Positions 56,004-63,203 of a DNA stretch of 64,000 nucleotides are shown here, piece after piece. The notes under the pieces were generated by a model that saw only the letters and a program-made list of their open reading frames with translations, did not search any database and was not told where the DNA came from. This stretch comes from Bacillus sp. F19 (lineage in GTDB: Bacteria; Bacillota; Bacilli; Bacillales; Bacillaceae). Location: assembly GCA_023823795.1 (NCBI GenBank), contig CP085710.1, forward strand, positions 3,250,001-3,314,000, read 5' to 3'. Both the position numbers and the translations under genes were made by a program. Position 1 is the first letter of the stretch, and every line of letters begins with the position of its first letter.

Positions 56004-56420
56004 TTAACGGCCGTAAGGACTAAATGGTGGTCTTGGACCGCCGCCGCAGTTGAATTGTTGATTTGAAGCCTGATTTACCGCAGATTGTGTTTGAGGGAAA
56101 TAATGTTTATGCTGAAAGTTCTGATGGTTGACTACAGTAGTGTGAGTAGGATGAATGTGCGGAACGACTGTTGTAGAAAATGTGTGCTGAACACAGCATT
56201 TTGTCGGATAGACAATCGGCGGACACACTTTAGCAGGTCCCATAGGTCCCATCATGCTTGGTGACACCATGCTTGGAGCTGGCATATTCGGTCCCATCAT
56301 ACTAGGTGAAACCATATTCGGCATATTCGGTCCCATCATACTAGGTGAAACCATGTTTGGCATATTCGGTCCCATTGAACCTGGTGATACCATATTTGGC
56401 ATATTATTATTTGGCATCAT
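56004..56420 (-). CDS. cotD: Inner spore coat protein CotD with N-terminal repeats
   Basis: 138 aa. The C-terminal half (about 68-110) is CotD: PPIVYPTKCCVQHTFSTTVVPHIHP, HTTVVNHQNFQHKHYFPQT. Residues 8-62 are repeated units of GPNMPNMVSPSMM type, absent from the 75-aa B. subtilis CotD as I recall. At DNA level the unit of about 40 bases is near identical in tandem (about 56270-56395). Likely SigK-controlled; no promoter assigned. Confidence 0.85.
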   Translation of the reverse strand: MMPNNNMPNMVSPGSMGPNMPNMVSPSMMGPNMPNMVSPSMMGPNMPAPSMVSPSMMGPMGPAKVCPPIVYPTKCCVQHTFSTTVVPHIHPTHTTVVNHQNFQHKHYFPQTQSAVNQASNQQFNCGGGPRPPFSPYGR

Positions 56421-56726: not shown

Positions 56727-56776
56727 CTGCGAAAAACCGCTGATTTTGCGCTTCCCCGGGGAATAATCAGCGGCTT
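56727..56776 (-). terminator. Terminator overlapping the yprB stop
   Basis: AGCCGCTGATT/AATCAGCGGTTTTT; the first arm contains the yprB stop codon. Confidence 0.75.
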
Positions 56777-58011
56777 TTATTTCCTAATCGCTTCATTCTT
56801 TTTAAGAGCGCAAGCTTTTCTTTTTCAGAATCGGTTTTTAATGTTTGATCTTTTGCTTTAATCGTTAAGTAAGCAGATGTCGCATATGACAGTGCTTTTT
56901 CATAGTTCTTTTCTTTGTGTTCATAATACTTAGCAAGCTCTACGGCAGCTTTCGCCTTCTGTTTCAAGCTCGTGCACTCTGCAACAGAATGAAATAATGG
57001 CAGGGCTTCCTTCAGTTGTTTTTTCCTTTTCAAATGCATGGCCATTTCGAATTTCGCCTCGAATTCTTTAGCCTCACTGCGGTCTGCTACAGATCTGAAT
57101 GTGTCGAACGCTGTTTCTTGATCTCCTGCAGACAGCAGCCATCTTGCCACTTCATACTGTTCTGTATCCGTTGCTTCGACACCCGGGAACAAGATTCGGT
57201 AAGAAAGATGTGTATACAAAGTAATTAAAGAAAGAATATCAATCTCGTTATGAATCATTACACCCTCGATATGATCAGGATCCTGAGACTGAACAAAGGT
57301 AAAATAAAGCATAGGAGCTAGATAGCCAGGAACATCATGCTCACGTTCAATACCCAGTATTTCTTTCTCTACTATGCTGAGTTTTACTGATTCCAAGCTT
57401 GATTTCCATAACCTTCTCGCGGCATGGAACAGATCAAAGTGGCCGAAAGCGGGAAGTTTTGGCACTTGTTCGCGTACTAGAGTATGCCTTGTTTTCACCT
57501 GGGGCCAATCGAACGCTTTACCGTTATAGGTTACGAGAGTCTTTGTATTCACATGGCTTAAAAAGCTTTGATAAAGTGCGACTTCGTTTCCCGGTTTAGG
57601 GAGAAAATGCTGCTTGACAACCACCTTGTCATGGAAAACCTGTGCATGCCCAAGCAGAAAGATTGTATTGCCTGCACCTCCCCCGAGTCCCGTCGTTTCT
57701 GTATCAAAGAAAAATAATTCAAAAGAATCATGGTCTTTGGACGATAATGGATGCAGGCTGTTTCTTTCATTCCAAAGAGAAACGGCTCTATGAAATTCAC
57801 CCATTTGATAGAGACCATGTTTATAGTCCAGCGGAAAAGTGCGTTCCCTGACCATGCAATACTCTCCATCAAACCAAAAGGGCTTGGCATCTAGAGCGTT
57901 CCACTTTTCAAGGTTGGGAATTTCCTCCGAATGGGCTGTTTGTACAGTTTCTGAACTGCCTTCAAGCGACATATGTGTTTTTAATCGATTTAACTTTCCT
58001 TTTAATGACAA
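56767..58011 (-). CDS. mrfB: DEDD-type exonuclease MrfB (YprB)
   Basis: 414 aa. RNase H-like DEDD domain: FFFDTETTGLGGGAGNTIFLLG, LVTYNGKAFDWPQVKTRH, GFFDLFHAARR-like AFGHFDLFHAARRLW, IHNEIDILSLITLYTHL. C-terminal TPR-like helices (about 280-400). In B. subtilis MrfB acts with the helicase MrfA in UvrABC-independent repair of mitomycin C lesions. It overlaps the truncated native yprA end by 10 bases. Confidence 0.93.
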   Translation of the reverse strand: MSLKGKLNRLKTHMSLEGSSETVQTAHSEEIPNLEKWNALDAKPFWFDGEYCMVRERTFPLDYKHGLYQMGEFHRAVSLWNERNSLHPLSSKDHDSFELFFFDTETTGLGGGAGNTIFLLGHAQVFHDKVVVKQHFLPKPGNEVALYQSFLSHVNTKTLVTYNGKAFDWPQVKTRHTLVREQVPKLPAFGHFDLFHAARRLWKSSLESVKLSIVEKEILGIEREHDVPGYLAPMLYFTFVQSQDPDHIEGVMIHNEIDILSLITLYTHLSYRILFPGVEATDTEQYEVARWLLSAGDQETAFDTFRSVADRSEAKEFEAKFEMAMHLKRKKQLKEALPLFHSVAECTSLKQKAKAAVELAKYYEHKEKNYEKALSYATSAYLTIKAKDQTLKTDSEKEKLALLKRMKRLGNKSR

Positions 58012-58473
58012 GGATTCTCTGCTCCTTTTAACTGAACTAATAATTGAAGGGTATCGTTTTTTTGATGATCAGACCCTTCAAGTCCTGTGCACGATGGGCA
58101 TCCGGATTCGCATGGACAGCCTGCAATCATCCCCATCGCTTCCTGCAGGAAGATCTCCATTGTTTCAAACACCTTATTTGAAAGCCCCGCCCCGCCCGGA
58201 TAACGGTCATACAGAAATACGGTCGGCAGATCATTATGAGTCGCTTTCATTTGCGGAATAACACTAATATCGGATGGATCACACATCACGCTTAACGGGA
58301 CAATATGCTTCAGAGCATGTGCAATTCCCAGCAGCGCTTCCTCAAGCCTGTCTTTTTTAAGCGATTTTGCCAGTTCCTCCGATAAACTGATCCAGGCAGC
58401 ATTCGTATGCAGCTCTTCTTCCGGCAGATGAATGGGTCCCGAACCGATGTTTTCATGTGTATCGAATTTAATT
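58002..58473 (-). pseudogene. 3' remnant of the resident mrfA (yprA) gene
   Basis: About 156 codons homologous to the last fifth of MrfA: KFDTHENIGSGPIHLPEEELHT, PTVFLYDRYPGGAGL, and zinc-type CPCESGCPSC. The helicase part is absent. Its position, in the original frame and overlapping yprB, is that of native yprA. Homology to the intact copy at 59618 begins at FIKIKF (58473), about 22 bases after the stop of the 249-aa gene. The ATG at 58508 could still be translated to a 168-aa stub. Sequence differs clearly from the intact cassette copy. Confidence 0.85.
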
Positions 58474-58494
58474 TTAATGAACATACTTACAAAC

Positions 58495-59244
58495 TCATGA
58501 AATAGCACTATTATACCGATTTATCAAAAAGTCTATAAAATTAATTGTTTCTTCTTTTCCTTCTTCGTTAAACACTGTTGCAACTAGGTCTTTGCTTAAC
58601 GATTTTTCTAAATCCTTTGTTTCAAAGGTAAAAGCCGCGTCTTCTTCCAAGCTTCCAATGTCTTTTATTAATATTTTATTTCCTTCTTCGTTATTAACGA
58701 TAAACCTAAATTCTAACTGTTCTTTAAAAGAAAGGTCCTTTTTAAAAGGTCCGATTCTTCCCTCTGTGTTTTCCAGGTCTACATATTCTACGAAGTCTAA
58801 GGCTTTTACATCAAAGGTACTTGTGAATTTGTTAACAAAAGCACCGGGGTTTGTTATAACTGTACAGTATTCACCGAATTTTTCTAATTCGATCGGAATA
58901 AGTCTTTCTATTTTTCCCGCTTTGAAGTCGTTAATTCGTTCTATGCTTATCCAGGTCATGCAATAAATAAAGCTATCCATTATCTCGTTAAGTCTTACAT
59001 TGATTGCCTTAGAACTGCTTTTTATTTCTTTGCCCTCTACTCTAAATGTAATTTTTCCTTCTTTGTACCTTTCAAAAATACCCTCAAACTTATCTGCCCT
59101 TTTTATTTCTTTCTGCAGTTCGTCTTCTTCTAAATCTTTGTAATGACCTAACCGCTGCATGAAAACATTACCTGTCTTTAACAAGGCTTCCATATGCGAC
59201 TTTTCCCCGAATTTTAATAATAATGCTGCGTGAACAGTTGCCAT
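58495..59244 (-). CDS. Unrecognised 249-aa cytosolic protein in the yprA cassette
   Basis: 249 aa, no signal or membrane helix, acidic and Lys-rich; N-terminal half helical (VHAALLLKFGEKSHMEALLKTGNVFMQRL, FERYKEGKITFRVEGK), C-terminal half beta-rich (EFRFIVNNEEGNKILI...). AAAGGGGGAAAGGG precedes the ATG. It ends about 22 bases before the native yprA remnant. Last gene of the mrfA-yolD-orf249 set. No family recognised; phage or plasmid type is plausible. Confidence 0.8.
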   Translation of the reverse strand: MATVHAALLLKFGEKSHMEALLKTGNVFMQRLGHYKDLEEDELQKEIKRADKFEGIFERYKEGKITFRVEGKEIKSSSKAINVRLNEIMDSFIYCMTWISIERINDFKAGKIERLIPIELEKFGEYCTVITNPGAFVNKFTSTFDVKALDFVEYVDLENTEGRIGPFKKDLSFKEQLEFRFIVNNEEGNKILIKDIGSLEEDAAFTFETKDLEKSLSKDLVATVFNEEGKEETINFIDFLINRYNSAIS

Positions 59245-59335
59245 GTACCCTTTCCCCCTTTACCCAGACTGCACGCCTTACATAGTAATCACTTTTGTAA
59301 TGGAAAAGAAGTCAATAGTTATTAAGGCGTCCAGT

Positions 59336-59605
59336 TCATCTATAATTTGTATTTTCTTTTTTTGGGTCGACTTTCTCTACAGTCCCTACCCTGGTATTAA
59401 AAAAGCCGTCTTTCCAGCTGCTGATTTCTAAAAGCGTTTTTTCGGTAAGGCTTTCGGCCAGCAGCGTTTCCATTTCTTCTATCTGGTCTTCGCTTAATTG
59501 TGGTCTAGGTACTTTTAAGCCCTCTCGTTCCACTTCTTTTAACATTTTTATATGTTCTGGCATAAAGAAGCCCTGCCATTTTTTATTCCCGCGATCTCTT
59601 AACAA
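59336..59605 (-). CDS. YolD-like protein
   Basis: About 89 aa, matching the YolD-like family: LRDRGNKKWQGFFMPEHIKMLKE, VPRPQLSEDQIEEMETLLAESL, SSWKDGFFNTRVGTVEKVDPKK. YolD-like genes usually accompany Y-family polymerases (UvrX/YqjW) under SOS control; here the partner is a repair helicase instead. TTG 59605 is seven bases after AAGGGG, itself overlapping the mrfA stop region. Role in repair is inferred. Confidence 0.85.
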   Translation of the reverse strand: MLRDRGNKKWQGFFMPEHIKMLKEVEREGLKVPRPQLSEDQIEEMETLLAESLTEKTLLEISSWKDGFFNTRVGTVEKVDPKKENTNYR

Positions 59606-59617
59606 AGGTATCACCCC

Positions 59618-61864
59618 TTAAAATTGATTTAGCAGCTGTATACTTCTTGCCTTCGCTTTTATCCCCTCTATTTCGTTACCGATACACGAAGGGCAGCCGT
59701 CATTACAAGGGCATTTCTTTATTAGGTTTTTCGCAGCTTCTTTCATTTCGTCGAAGCGCTTATAAACCTCTTCTGCTAAACCTATCCCGCCTGGGTAATG
59801 GTCGTAAATGAAAATCGTAGGCAGTCCTGTATGTGCTGCTCTTATTTGTGAAACTACGTGAATATCATTACGATCACACATTACATGTACAGGTACTACA
59901 TGCTGCAGCACATTGGATATTCCTAGCAGCAGCTGTTCCATTGTTTTTTCGCCTAGCGTCGGGTCGACTTCTTTTATTTCTAACCAGGTAGCGCTGGTAT
60001 GCAGTTCTTCTTCTGGTAAGTAGATCGGTCCAGACCCTATATTTTCGAACGTTGTTAACTTGATCTTTTTAAAGATTGTAGGTAAAGCATTTACTGTTAC
60101 ATCGCCATAGTTTATTGAAGAAACATTTCTTATATTCGTTTTATCTATTTCTAAAACCTTTAATTGTACAGCCAGATTCGCGTCTGTGTAGTATTCTACG
60201 TCTACTTCCCTTACGTACGCTTTTTTATGGTCCCAGTCCAGTTTCTCTACCTGGTATTGTACGCCTTCGTGTAAATAAATCGCTTCGTCATGTAAAAGTG
60301 TCATAGCACTAAAACGGTCCATTTCCCCTATGATTTTTACGTTAGCTGTTTCCGATTGATCTATTATTACGACGTTTTCCTGTGAAGCCGATCTTAAGCT
60401 GATATTTCCAGCTGGAAAAGACTGATTAGCCCAGTAAAACTTTTTACCGTTTTGATACAAGACCCTTTCTTCTACCAGGTATTCTAATATGTCTTCAAGT
60501 TCTAAAGGTCCGAATTCTTCCCCTTCATTAAACGGCAGTTCGTAAGCTGCACATTTTAAATGATCTACTAAAATGATTAAGTTTTCTGGGTTAATCCTGG
60601 CTGACTCTGGGGACCGATCGAAAAAGTATTCCGGGTTTTGAACGATATACTGATCTATTGGGGCAGAACTAGCGACCATAAGTATAAGTGCTTCGCCATG
60701 CCTACGCCCAGCCCGTCCTGCCTGCTGCCATGTACTAGCAACGCTGCCAGGGTAGCCTGTCATAACGCAGACCTGCAGCTGTCCAATGTCTACGCCTAAT
60801 TCTAAAGCGTTTGTACTTACTACCCCAAGTATTTCCCCTTCCCTTAAGCCTCTTTCTATTTCTCTGCGCTGCTTGGGAAGGTATCCGCCCCGATAACCTC
60901 TTATTGATTTCGTGCCGATCTTATCCTTAACCAGTTCCTGTATATGACTTAAAATGATTTCGACCCGTACCCGACTTCGAGCGAATACGATCGTCTGTAT
61001 TTTGTTCTTTAAAAATTCCTTCGCTAGATTGTTTACTTCTACTGTAGCGCTTTTTCGAATGTTTAAAGGTTTATTTACGATCGACGGGTTATAAAAAACA
61101 AAGTGCTTTCTTCCCCTGGGCGCCCCGTTATCATCTACCAGGCGCATAGGGTTTCCAGTAAGCTGTTCGGCTAACTCTTTCGGGTTCGCGATCGTCGCAG
61201 ACGTACAGATAAAGATCGGATTACTTCCGTAAAATTTACAGATTCTTTTTAGCCTTCTTATTACATTCGCTACATGACTGCCGAAGACCCCGCGGTATGT
61301 ATGCAGTTCATCAATAACGACGTATTTTAGATTCTCGAATAAGCTTACCCATTTCGTATGATGGGGAAGAATGGCCGAATGTAACATATCAGGGTTTGTA
61401 ATAACGATATGCCCAGCCTTACGTACGACCTGCCGAATAGTCGGGGAAGTATCTCCGTCGTAGGTATAGCTTTTAATATCTATCCCCATTTCTTCTATGA
61501 TCTCGTTTAATTCGCTTTTCTGGTCTTGTGCCAGGGCTTTAGTTGGAAAAATGTAAAGTGCGCGGTTCGCGTCATTTTTTGCAATGGATTGAAGGACAGG
61601 AAGGTTATAGCAAAGTGTTTTACCCGAAGCGGTAGGGGTTACAGCTACAATGTTTTCACCTTTTTGTAAGGTTTCGTAGGCTGTGTACTGATGGCTGTAA
61701 AGTTCCCCGATTCCTCTTTTTTTCAGCGCAGCTTTAATTCTTTCGTCTACGCTTGCAGGTATGGGCTTCGTTTTTGCTTCCTGGGGTTCGATTTCGTGCC
61801 AGTTAATTATATTTTCATTGGTTCTTAATTCTTCTATCAAATCTGAAAGTGATTTTTTCTTCAT
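59618..61864 (-). CDS. mrfA: DNA repair helicase MrfA (YprA), cassette copy
   Basis: 748 aa, full length. Motif I VTPTASGKT (about 75-83), motif II VIDELHTYRG (about 184), FICTSATI, motif VI QQAGRAGRRHG near 390. C-terminal DUF1998/MrfA domain with YDHYPGGIGL and CPCNDGCPSC zinc site. Very like B. subtilis YprA as I recall, much more than the native 3' remnant. ATG 61864 has GAGGTGG; the GTG at 61873 overlaps it. A LexA-like box lies upstream. Works with MrfB. Confidence 0.95.
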   Translation of the reverse strand: MKKKSLSDLIEELRTNENIINWHEIEPQEAKTKPIPASVDERIKAALKKRGIGELYSHQYTAYETLQKGENIVAVTPTASGKTLCYNLPVLQSIAKNDANRALYIFPTKALAQDQKSELNEIIEEMGIDIKSYTYDGDTSPTIRQVVRKAGHIVITNPDMLHSAILPHHTKWVSLFENLKYVVIDELHTYRGVFGSHVANVIRRLKRICKFYGSNPIFICTSATIANPKELAEQLTGNPMRLVDDNGAPRGRKHFVFYNPSIVNKPLNIRKSATVEVNNLAKEFLKNKIQTIVFARSRVRVEIILSHIQELVKDKIGTKSIRGYRGGYLPKQRREIERGLREGEILGVVSTNALELGVDIGQLQVCVMTGYPGSVASTWQQAGRAGRRHGEALILMVASSAPIDQYIVQNPEYFFDRSPESARINPENLIILVDHLKCAAYELPFNEGEEFGPLELEDILEYLVEERVLYQNGKKFYWANQSFPAGNISLRSASQENVVIIDQSETANVKIIGEMDRFSAMTLLHDEAIYLHEGVQYQVEKLDWDHKKAYVREVDVEYYTDANLAVQLKVLEIDKTNIRNVSSINYGDVTVNALPTIFKKIKLTTFENIGSGPIYLPEEELHTSATWLEIKEVDPTLGEKTMEQLLLGISNVLQHVVPVHVMCDRNDIHVVSQIRAAHTGLPTIFIYDHYPGGIGLAEEVYKRFDEMKEAAKNLIKKCPCNDGCPSCIGNEIEGIKAKARSIQLLNQF

Positions 61865-61895
61865 TCGCTCCACCTCTTTATGAATTTTAGTTTAG

Positions 61896-61909
61896 CGAAT
61901 ATTTGTTTG
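61896..61909 (-). promoter_or_regulatory. Candidate LexA (DinR) box before cassette mrfA
   Basis: Minus strand CAAACAAATATTCG matches CGAAC-N4-GTTCG at 8 of 10 positions, about 32 bases before the mrfA start. Confidence 0.35.
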
Positions 61910-62062
61910 CATTTCCAGTTAAAAAATTTAACAAAAGCTGGGTGCCTAAGATGTAACAAAATACAAATAAAAACGCTGTTTTCGTAAGAATTGTTACTAT
62001 CTTGACCATACTGATAAAAGGTTGACTTTCAACTAGTAAATTGGATTTAAAGGAGGGTTAAC

Positions 62063-62539
62063 ATGAAAGATGAATTAAGTATAAATATCTATTTAGGTGA
62101 AACTGATACTCCGTTTTCAAAATATTATAGCTCAGATGATGTTCACCTAAGCTCTGACCTTGAAGATTTTATTTTGTCAAAGCTACACAGTGGCAAAAGA
62201 AAAGAAGTAGAAATATTTTTTTCAGGTCAGAATGATTTTGACGAAAAGTCATTGAAGACTGCCACATTTAACACTTTTTCTAACCTTTTGAACGAAGAGG
62301 AATATACATATGCTAGAAATGTCAAAAAGGCTATTGTTTTGTTTGTGATTGGTATTATTGTTGGGGTGATATTCTTGAAGCTTTCAAGCAATCATGCCTA
62401 TATTGCAGGAGTATTAAGCATTGTGTGTTGGGTTTTTGTCTGGTCAGGTACAGAGGTTTATTTTTTTGAAAATCAGCAAATTAAACGAAATATTAGAAAA
62501 TGCAAGAATATTCTAAATGGTAATGTGCATAAAAAATAG
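62063..62539 (+). CDS. Two-helix membrane protein of the cassette
   Basis: 158 aa. Soluble N-terminus (1-85) with DVHLSSDLEDFILSKL, two hydrophobic helices AIVLFVIGIIVGVIFLKL and YIAGVLSIVCWVFVWSG, short basic tail. AAAGGAGGG lies six bases upstream. AT-rich, divergent from mrfA. Not recognised; could be an effector or maintenance gene. Confidence 0.8.
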   Translation: MKDELSINIYLGETDTPFSKYYSSDDVHLSSDLEDFILSKLHSGKRKEVEIFFSGQNDFDEKSLKTATFNTFSNLLNEEEYTYARNVKKAIVLFVIGIIVGVIFLKLSSNHAYIAGVLSIVCWVFVWSGTEVYFFENQQIKRNIRKCKNILNGNVHKK

Positions 62540-62609
62540 AATTTTAGTAAATATTTATATTTTTTCGGATTCTTTCTTGTGCATTTATTTGGGTTACTGT
62601 TTGGAATAT

Positions 62610-62635
62610 AAAAAAGCCCAGACCGAAGTCTGGGT
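62610..62635 (-). terminator. Minus-strand terminator inside the cassette
   Basis: CCCAGAC-TTCG-GTCTGGG then six T on the minus strand (UUCG tetraloop). No minus-strand intact gene lies directly upstream except the decayed yprA start. Confidence 0.7.
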
Positions 62636-62650
62636 AAAAGAGGAAAAAGT

Positions 62651-62696
62651 AAGACCTGGCAGGGGTTCGCCCCGTCTGCCAGGTCTTTATTTTTGG
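62651..62696 (+). terminator. Strong plus-strand terminator
   Basis: AAGACCTGGCAG/CTGCCAGGTCTT around an inner GGGG-TTCG-CCCC hairpin, followed by TATTTTT. Ends the 158-aa gene. Confidence 0.85.
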
Positions 62697-62792
62697 CTCT
62701 TTTCTAAAAGATTGTTGCTATTAGAAAAATAAATTGTATAATATTGGTAATAACTGATACGTCTGTTAATATCCTAATTAGGAGGTGTTTAG

Positions 62793-63017
62793 ATGAAATT
62801 AAAGAGCTTCATAGTTACCTTTGGTTCCTTTGTATTGACGACAGGAATGCTTTACCTGGTTGGTCATATGTTTACTATTCCTTGGTTAATGTTCCATCAC
62901 GAATATACAGTGAACGGAAACGGCTACTTCATTTCAGCTGGTTCGTTGGTTCCACTAATTATCGGTCTGATTGTATGCTTTTTTGCAGAAAAGATTTATA
63001 TTTACAAGTTCCGATAA
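62793..63017 (+). CDS. 74-aa two-helix membrane protein of the cassette
   Basis: 74 aa with two hydrophobic helices (FIVTFGSFVLTTGMLYLVGHMF and LVPLIIGLIVCFFAEKI). AGGAGGTG lies seven bases before the ATG. A terminator follows at 63020. Not recognised. Confidence 0.75.
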   Translation: MKLKSFIVTFGSFVLTTGMLYLVGHMFTIPWLMFHHEYTVNGNGYFISAGSLVPLIIGLIVCFFAEKIYIYKFR

Positions 63018-63019
63018 AA

Positions 63020-63047
63020 GCTTGGTTGATAATGCCAAGTTTTTTAA
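63020..63047 (+). terminator. Terminator of the 74-aa gene
   Basis: CTTGG-TTGATAATG-CCAAG then TTTTTT. Confidence 0.7.
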
Positions 63048-63051
63048 ATTC

Positions 63052-63162
63052 TTAATTTGCACGCCAAACCTTCTGAAAAACGTGTTTCACGAACCTCTCC
63101 AATGAAATTGGAAATATCAGCTTTTGGTTCAGGATTTCTGCTAATGACTGCTTTCTTCTCAT
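63052..63162 (-). pseudogene. 5' remnant of the resident mrfA (yprA) gene
   Basis: ATG 63162 with GAGGTGAGGCG before it reads MRRKQSLAEILNQ, like the MrfA start MKKKSLSDLIEEL, then loses frame. The next frame gives PEPKADISNFIGEVRETRFSEGL, resembling the WHEIE-REAKT-P-PES region of MrfA. Leader and start are similar to those of the intact copy at 61864. The homology stops near 63060, beside the cassette. Confidence 0.6.
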
Positions 63163-63189
63163 TCGCCTCACCTCTTCATTCATTTTAAC

Positions 63190-63203
63190 AGAATAAACGT
63201 TCG
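63190..63203 (-). promoter_or_regulatory. Candidate LexA box before the yprA 5' remnant
   Basis: Minus strand CGAACGTTTATTCT: CGAAC half-site perfect, 8 of 10 consensus positions. Same relative place as the box before the cassette mrfA. Confidence 0.4.

Follow-up and report, generated by a model that had tools for sequence, protein, structure and literature searches.

A diverged helicase gene inside a split mrfA of Bacillus sp. F19 as the probable remnant of a prophage that brought its own copy

Introduction

How does a chromosome come to carry an intact, diverged copy of a core repair gene between the two broken ends of its own? The question is raised by mrfA (yprA), the helicase gene of the MrfAB pair, in Bacillus sp. 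F19, where it lies within a 64,000-nucleotide (nt) stretch of contig 1 (CP085710.1, positions 3,250,001 to 3,314,000) of the 5.59-Mb source genome. This whole stretch is referred to here as the window, and all positions are given in its coordinates. MrfAB repairs mitomycin damage, according to the parts consulted of two reports (PMC11194089; PMC12458937). The insert that splits the window gene reads best as a decayed prophage. Taken as a whole, the explanation that an element integrated at codon ~600 of mrfA with an mrfA of its own and then decayed, as one instance of a recurrent process of docking and replacement, is considered highly probable.

A resident mrfA split by a foreign segment

On the minus strand, the locus runs from ypqE through an mrfA stub, a 4.66-kb insert and an mrfA 3' end to yprB, and the insert holds two small plus-strand genes, an intact mrfA, a yolD-like gene and a gene for a protein of 249 amino acids (aa). 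A preliminary description, made from the letters alone, had proposed a resident mrfA split by an insert with its own intact mrfA, and alignment to same-genus genes confirms this. The 3' fragment is real, comprising resident codons ~600 to the end with the zinc-binding MZB domain (58002..58475, minus strand), next to which the right end of the insert occupies 58476..58503. The 5' fragment proved smaller than had been thought: the leader and the first 10 codons (63133..63162, minus strand, by alignment), which form the left end of the scar, are resident, whereas 63052-63132 is not mrfA. The window thus retains the first 10 codons and those from ~600 to the end.

Both pieces belong to the local lineage. 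With its flank, the left piece matches the same-genus genome G006 at 96% identity (880 nt) and the right piece at 98% (4432 nt), whereas the intact cassette mrfA is 68% identical to the G006 resident gene over 1679 nt; the 3' fragment shares 78-93% identity with same-genus resident genes but 48% with the intact copy. The view that fragments and intact copy differ in lineage therefore stands. When the yprB-ypqE interval was compared among relatives, as had been advised, one unbroken resident mrfA was found between yprB and ypqE in 7/7 same-genus genomes and the window arrangement in none; the cassette genes beside mrfA were found in 0/7 of those searched. Together, these results support the proposal that a foreign segment landed in mrfA, that the middle of the gene was lost and that a foreign copy stands in its place. 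The segment retains no recombinase, as also noted earlier, and it is for this reason filed as a decayed remnant only.

The intact gene (59618..61864, minus strand, 748 aa) was likewise correctly described. Its product contains DEAD, Helicase_C, winged-helix and zinc-binding (MZB) domains, matches B. subtilis YprA (PDB 6znp) over residues 1-747, and ends in a four-cysteine MZB whose C718, C720, C724 and C727 are invariant across 12 sequences of its type. The gene is ~69% identical to resident genes and up to 92% identical to genes of other genera, and on the basis of its domains, identity and codon score it is taken as cargo of the element. Genes like this copy are termed type-2 and resident-like genes type-1, with a cut between types at 72.5% identity, which separates the Paenibacillaceae sample cleanly (complete genes at 64-81% being absent) but is arbitrary in Bacillales, where the type-1 row L180 sits within the type-2 clade.

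Prophages in mrfA

Codon ~600, where the window gene was entered, is also the point at which mrfA is split by two related prophages. In the Paenibacillaceae genome G867, the parts of the resident gene lie 56.3 kb apart and the insertion is a prophage with a serine recombinase at its left attachment site (attL), a portal, a tail sheath and a primase-like gene; the recombinase matches Pfam Resolvase (7e-24) and Recombinase (4.2e-10) as well as a PHROG integrase (2.5e-65). The 55.8-kb viral contig G877 ends in mrfA codons 560-602 and 599-631, and its recombinase is 66% identical to that of G867. In both cases integration at codon ~600 costs the resident gene its zinc-binding C-terminus.

The right attachment site (attR) of G867 consists of TTTCATGGTTCTGTACCCCCATTTATT followed by AAAATCCG and resembles the sequence found at the scars of several lineages. 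In the window the attR-like scar (58476..58503, minus strand, by alignment) is composed of a phage half, ATTTCATGAGTTTGTAAGTATGTTCATT, followed by the resident AAAATTAAATTC; in ungapped comparison, the right junction matches the attR of G867 at 17/27 positions (equalled by 9/2000 shuffles) and that of G877 at 18/27 (equalled by 14/2000).

A further viral contig, G875, combines such a phage with type-2 mrfA. It is colinear with G867, its proteins being up to 97% identical; one end bears the recombinase, and at the opposite end, in the position of the G867 attR, a type-2 mrfA begins. A scan of viral contigs with the 12-sequence type-2 alignment recovered G875 again and nothing else. A phage-gene promoter-operator, TATAAT followed by GGGGAACANYCGTTCT, was expressed as a pattern built from G875 and the chromosomal loci L108, L127, L136 and L137; in the whole viral collection it occurs in one stretch, G875 itself, and it lies just ahead of type-2 mrfA in 14 distinct Paenibacillaceae loci (L241 being a second copy of L127 in this count).

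One further candidate was dropped. The type-1 mrfA of G846 (G846:C9:1259074-1261331), examined as a second split gene, has no insertion; its frame breaks near codon 228 and near codon 600, the latter by one extra A within a run of A, and both could be sequencing errors.

Scars across lineages

The 237 loci with an mrfA match reduce to 200 distinct ones, 116 with type-2 and 84 with type-1 genes. Remnants of a resident mrfA flank 10/116 type-2 loci as against 0/84 type-1 loci, and an attR-like sequence after the stop codon that beats all 300 shuffles is present in 10/114 type-2 loci (window and phage contig excluded) as against 0/84 type-1 loci. In alignments of close pairs covering 16 type-2 loci, the resident gene resumes 6-54 nt past the type-2 stop in 9, its first resumed codon ranging from ~600 to one of the last few; in four of these 9, L122, L132, L236 and L244, just the final 12-28 nt of the resident gene, at the start of yprB, are retained. 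Several lineages share a like sequence, (G)TNTGTAC..TTCATT, ahead of the resumed resident AAAATCCG at codon ~600. The remnants are clearly of the local lineage in the window, L127, L137 and L145 and not clearly so in L147, L108, L149, L153 and L099; pair alignments suggest an additional remnant in L243, uncounted by the protein scan. The closest parallel to the window is L145 (Paenibacillus sp. SY21-1), in which type-2 mrfA is flanked by resident pieces both upstream (codons 175-201 and 385-449) and downstream (~663 to the end).

Phage-protein matches in the fetched flanks of the 200 loci were confined to L127, L086 and the phage contig. L127 (Paenibacillus gorillae) shows, in this order, a phage-gene remnant, type-2 mrfA, an attR-like sequence and a resident 3' remnant, the first matching the G875 gene that precedes mrfA (39 aa, 62%, 2e-10). 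With the attR-like sequence and resident tail downstream and the phage remnant upstream, the type-2 mrfA of L127 would thus lie within a former element. Upstream of type-2 mrfA in L086 (Bacillus sp. SA1-12) there is a recombinase fragment (59 aa, 46%, 1e-9). According to a list compiled by hand from the remnant, attR and operator results, at least one of these three signatures occurs in 21/68 Paenibacillaceae type-2 loci, and the signature-bearing loci fall in 7/20 separate type-2-only clades of that family. The idea that type-2 genes are recoded at the attachment site to resist a second integration was also considered and dropped, as divergence there is ordinary (residual rank 0.44).

Distribution of the two types

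In a sample of 245 genomes whose Paenibacillaceae label is inferred, type-2 mrfA, 81-88% identical to the intact window copy, occurs in 41 and a complete type-1 gene, 60-64% identical to it, in 68; a further 3 have a broken mrfA, 4 match solely via more distant helicases (34-35%), and 129/245 have no MrfA match at an E value of 1e-60. Intact copies of both types were found together in 0/245 at the threshold used. As an observation in its own right, the number of genomes lacking a match at that E value means that mrfA may also be lost often.

Neighbours of type-2 mrfA do not share its similarity between lineages. In a tree of 198 mrfA sequences, from which L115 and L163 were excluded, 67 Paenibacillaceae type-2 genes form one clade (support 98) adjoining the Bacillaceae group that contains the window. 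On the yprB tree, 107 Paenibacillaceae rows require 18 changes of type label, 13 of them forced by well-supported branches, as counted by a quick method for which the tool gave a long-branch warning; over all 198 rows (FastTree), 31 type changes are needed on the yprB tree versus 2 on the mrfA tree. The yprB genes of the named Paenibacillaceae type-2 loci are 29-37% identical to that of the window. In 114/116 type-2 loci yprB lies downstream of mrfA, the exceptions being the phage contig L163 and L115, for which the flank covers ~440 nt. With start codons taken as approximate, type-1 mrfA and yprB usually touch or overlap (median spacing -1 in Paenibacillaceae, -7 in Bacillales), whereas type-2 mrfA and yprB usually lie apart (+54 and +22, respectively); in the window, yprB is intact downstream of type-2 mrfA, ~1.6 kb off behind the remaining cassette.

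Control region of the window gene

An SOS/LexA-like box, CAAACAAATATTCG, lies ~44 nt ahead of the mrfA start (61896..61909, minus strand, by motif comparison). It has 2 mismatches to GAACNNNNGTTC, a fit that shuffles reach equally often and that is weak alone. The longer sequence CAAACAAATATTCGSTAAACTA is common to the window and the type-2 loci L083, L085, L086, L089 and L090, so that the window promoter-operator recurs in 5 more type-2 loci, those of Peribacillus kribbensis, P. deserti, Bacillus canaveralius and 2 Bacillus strains (L086 among them). SOS-like boxes with at most 1 mismatch are found upstream of most type-1 genes and of 62/68 Paenibacillaceae type-2 genes. The operator of the window type was absent from all viral contigs of the collection scanned.

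A course of events for the window

According to the preferred explanation, a temperate phage-like element would enter the resident mrfA at codon ~600 by means of a large serine recombinase, with a diverged but complete mrfA of its own close to the attR side. Integration would split the resident gene and remove its zinc-binding C-terminus. As the left side of the window has no attachment site, a large deletion would have taken the left part of the prophage together with resident codons 11-599, and the left end of the scar (63133..63162) is accordingly read as a deletion end rather than an attachment site. Most of the prophage would thus have gone, with type-2 mrfA, yolD and the 249-aa gene left next to the resident 3' tail and an attR scar. 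The role of MrfAB in mitomycin repair probably passed to the incoming helicase, under an SOS-type box, and repair function would be kept in the window strain. In related bacteria too, mrfA seems to serve phages as a docking site, refilled time and again with a phage-borne version of the gene; such docking and replacement would account for much of the scattered occurrence of type-2 mrfA in Paenibacillaceae, with ordinary recombination spreading the gene later.

Evidence against and alternative explanations

A number of observations weigh against this explanation. A complete type-2 mrfA was observed in none of the intact prophages: the type-2 mrfA of G875 is cut by the contig end, with its first 148 codons present, and searches of the G867 and G877 prophages revealed no type-2 copy. 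The recombinase has no match in the window genome at 1e-50 (3/7 first-look candidates scored), and G867 is the only one of the 245 Paenibacillaceae genomes with it. Relatives of the recombinase, 39-57% identical (L271-L276), occur in 6/397 Bacillales genomes, 3 of them containing a stop codon; the short stretches fetched around them held no mrfA sequence, and these recombinases perhaps use another target. At the window itself, the resemblance of the right junction to a phage attR is moderate as a comparison of sequences, the left end lies at resident codon 10 with no attL in the alignment, and yolD and the 249-aa gene stand between type-2 mrfA and attR, unlike in Paenibacillus. Codon usage of window mrfA is unlike that of the host, although on a score of phage minus host, from reference tables that include the ORFs setting the ranges, the gene (+0.029) falls between 23 host open reading frames (ORFs; -0.268 to -0.131) and 24 phage ORFs (+0.05 to +0.29), just short of the latter; the yolD, 249-aa and 74-aa genes likewise score outside the host range, and the 158-aa gene has a host-like score. 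Finally, 47/68 Paenibacillaceae type-2 loci carry none of the three signatures, a pattern compatible with later swaps among neighbours as well as with full decay.

The same 47 loci would also fit ordinary gene exchange, in which linear DNA from a distant relative, bearing mrfA and its neighbours, recombined at mrfA with one illegitimate junction and no phage took part, since clean swaps there would fit homologous recombination between neighbours; the position of yprB downstream of type-2 mrfA in 114/116 loci agrees with it as well. Such exchange leaves unexplained why scattered lineages share a right junction at codon ~600 with one and the same short sequence next to it, and it accounts neither for the remnants of recombinase and phage gene nor for the operator shared with G875 and the codon usage. 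As the origin of the arrangement it is considered improbable, although it may still account for later spread.

Less probable still is a defence island, with a YprA-type helicase acting against viruses and the 249-aa protein as its effector. DISARM, Dpd and Druantia have YprA relatives at their core, as stated in the part consulted of PMC12458937, and PADLOC models of 74 families match the window helicase; however, this protein is a full-length relative of the repair YprA/MrfA, the best PADLOC stretches among the 25 matches listed lie in the shared helicase core, and PADLOC matches none of the other four cassette proteins. An old tandem duplication, with differential loss among two ancestral mrfA copies leaving the fragments, has on its side that most remnants lie 3', ahead of yprB, and is the least credible of all given resident pieces on both sides in the window and L145, a single gene in 7/7 same-genus genomes, the 0/245 genomes in which both types were found intact at that search threshold, and type-2 genes that, at 81-88% identity between window and Paenibacillaceae despite yprB at 29-37%, are too similar for an ancient duplicate.

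Other features of the window

The resident partner exonuclease gene yprB/mrfB (56767..58011, minus strand) is intact (Pfam RNase_H_2, 1.9e-43) and 99.5% identical to that of same-genus G006. Next to the scar, the 249-aa protein (58495..59244, minus strand) belongs to the phage protein families phrog_26561 and phrog_13198 (PHROG E values 5.5e-17 and 4.4e-6, respectively); it has 1 weak match (27%, 8e-6) among the other 80 family genomes searched, and 6 distant plasmid matches with no match among phage records. The YolD-like protein (59336..59614, minus strand; Pfam 3e-17) falls in phage family phrog_3352 (9.3e-24). When viral contigs were scanned with YolD and the 249-aa gene, by a procedure that requires exact short peptides, no relative was found. 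The plus-strand genes encode predicted proteins of 158 aa (62063..62536; codon score at the host end, no Pfam match above the cut-off) and 74 aa (62793..63014; codon score outside the host range, no PHROG match and no Pfam match above the cut-off). Searches of phage and plasmid collections with the cassette mrfA yielded nothing close: 0/7 phage records cover 80% of the query, and all 1007 plasmid records are below 60% identity; within its own genome, the cassette DNA has no other match except one 28-nt stretch.

Two observations concern other subjects. Window positions 56004-56420 encode a small protein of repeated Met/Pro/Asn-rich units (SMMGPNMPNMVSP), presumably like a spore coat protein. 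Neighbouring pairs of ~900-aa YprA-like helicases, 30-35% identical to MrfA, were seen in several Paenibacillaceae and one window relative (G032:C1:1420250-1425162; G649, G702, G726, G733, G747, G824, G857, G657, G660, G758, G792) and are possibly defence-type YprA systems.

Relation to known systems

From the parts of the reports compared, SpyCI in Streptococcus pyogenes mutL (PMC4129442) is likewise a phage-like element in a DNA repair gene, with the repair gene switched, as its title has it, whereas in the window it is replaced; and grounded prophages (PMC6379469) are, again from the title, immobilised prophages that serve as a source of new genes, as here, although the gene retained in the window substitutes for that of its own landing site. 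Islander islands split a tRNA or tmRNA gene and restore it (PMC4383910, in the part compared), so that there too the element supplies the restoring part; unlike them, the window element supplies an entire, diverged gene under its own promoter in place of a matching end piece, and this gene persists past the decay of the element. Diverse recombinases can target one conserved coding site, 33 of them in a prolyl isomerase gene, according to the portions consulted of Durrant et al., 2022 (PMC10083194), and large serine recombinases with single gene targets described there use a conserved coding site, as at mrfA. The main text of that paper contains no occurrence of helicase, MrfA or DUF1998, and the passages compared hold no replacement gene beside an attachment site. 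In the titles and abstract openings searched, a partial sample of the literature, no prophage in mrfA/yprA with a replacement copy was described, nor was a complete but diverged stand-in for a core repair gene that is repeatedly left behind after loss of the phage.

As in B. subtilis MrfAB, the imported gene encodes a full-length MrfA (6znp) upstream of mrfB; unlike in that system, MrfA and MrfB of the window differ in lineage, forming a hybrid pair parted by the cassette.

Significance

On a wider scale, it is fairly likely that a lineage of contractile-tailed temperate phages docks in mrfA and supplies an SOS-controlled mrfA that outlasts the prophage, that the helicase half of MrfAB has been repeatedly overwritten in this way in Bacillaceae and Paenibacillaceae, and that the gene in 41/109 Paenibacillaceae genomes with a complete mrfA was phage-supplied, directly or by spread. 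This would be a concrete route for repeated swapping of a core chromosomal repair gene between families while its neighbours stay unmoved, with a named attachment site, mrfA codon ~600, and a named recombinase, both open to direct test. The compatibility of MrfA and MrfB becomes an evolutionary question, as the partners here come from different lineages; complementation requires closely related alleles, as stated in the part consulted of a preprint (PMC12458937). Such scars would also make old integrations readable in genomes in which no phage gene is left.

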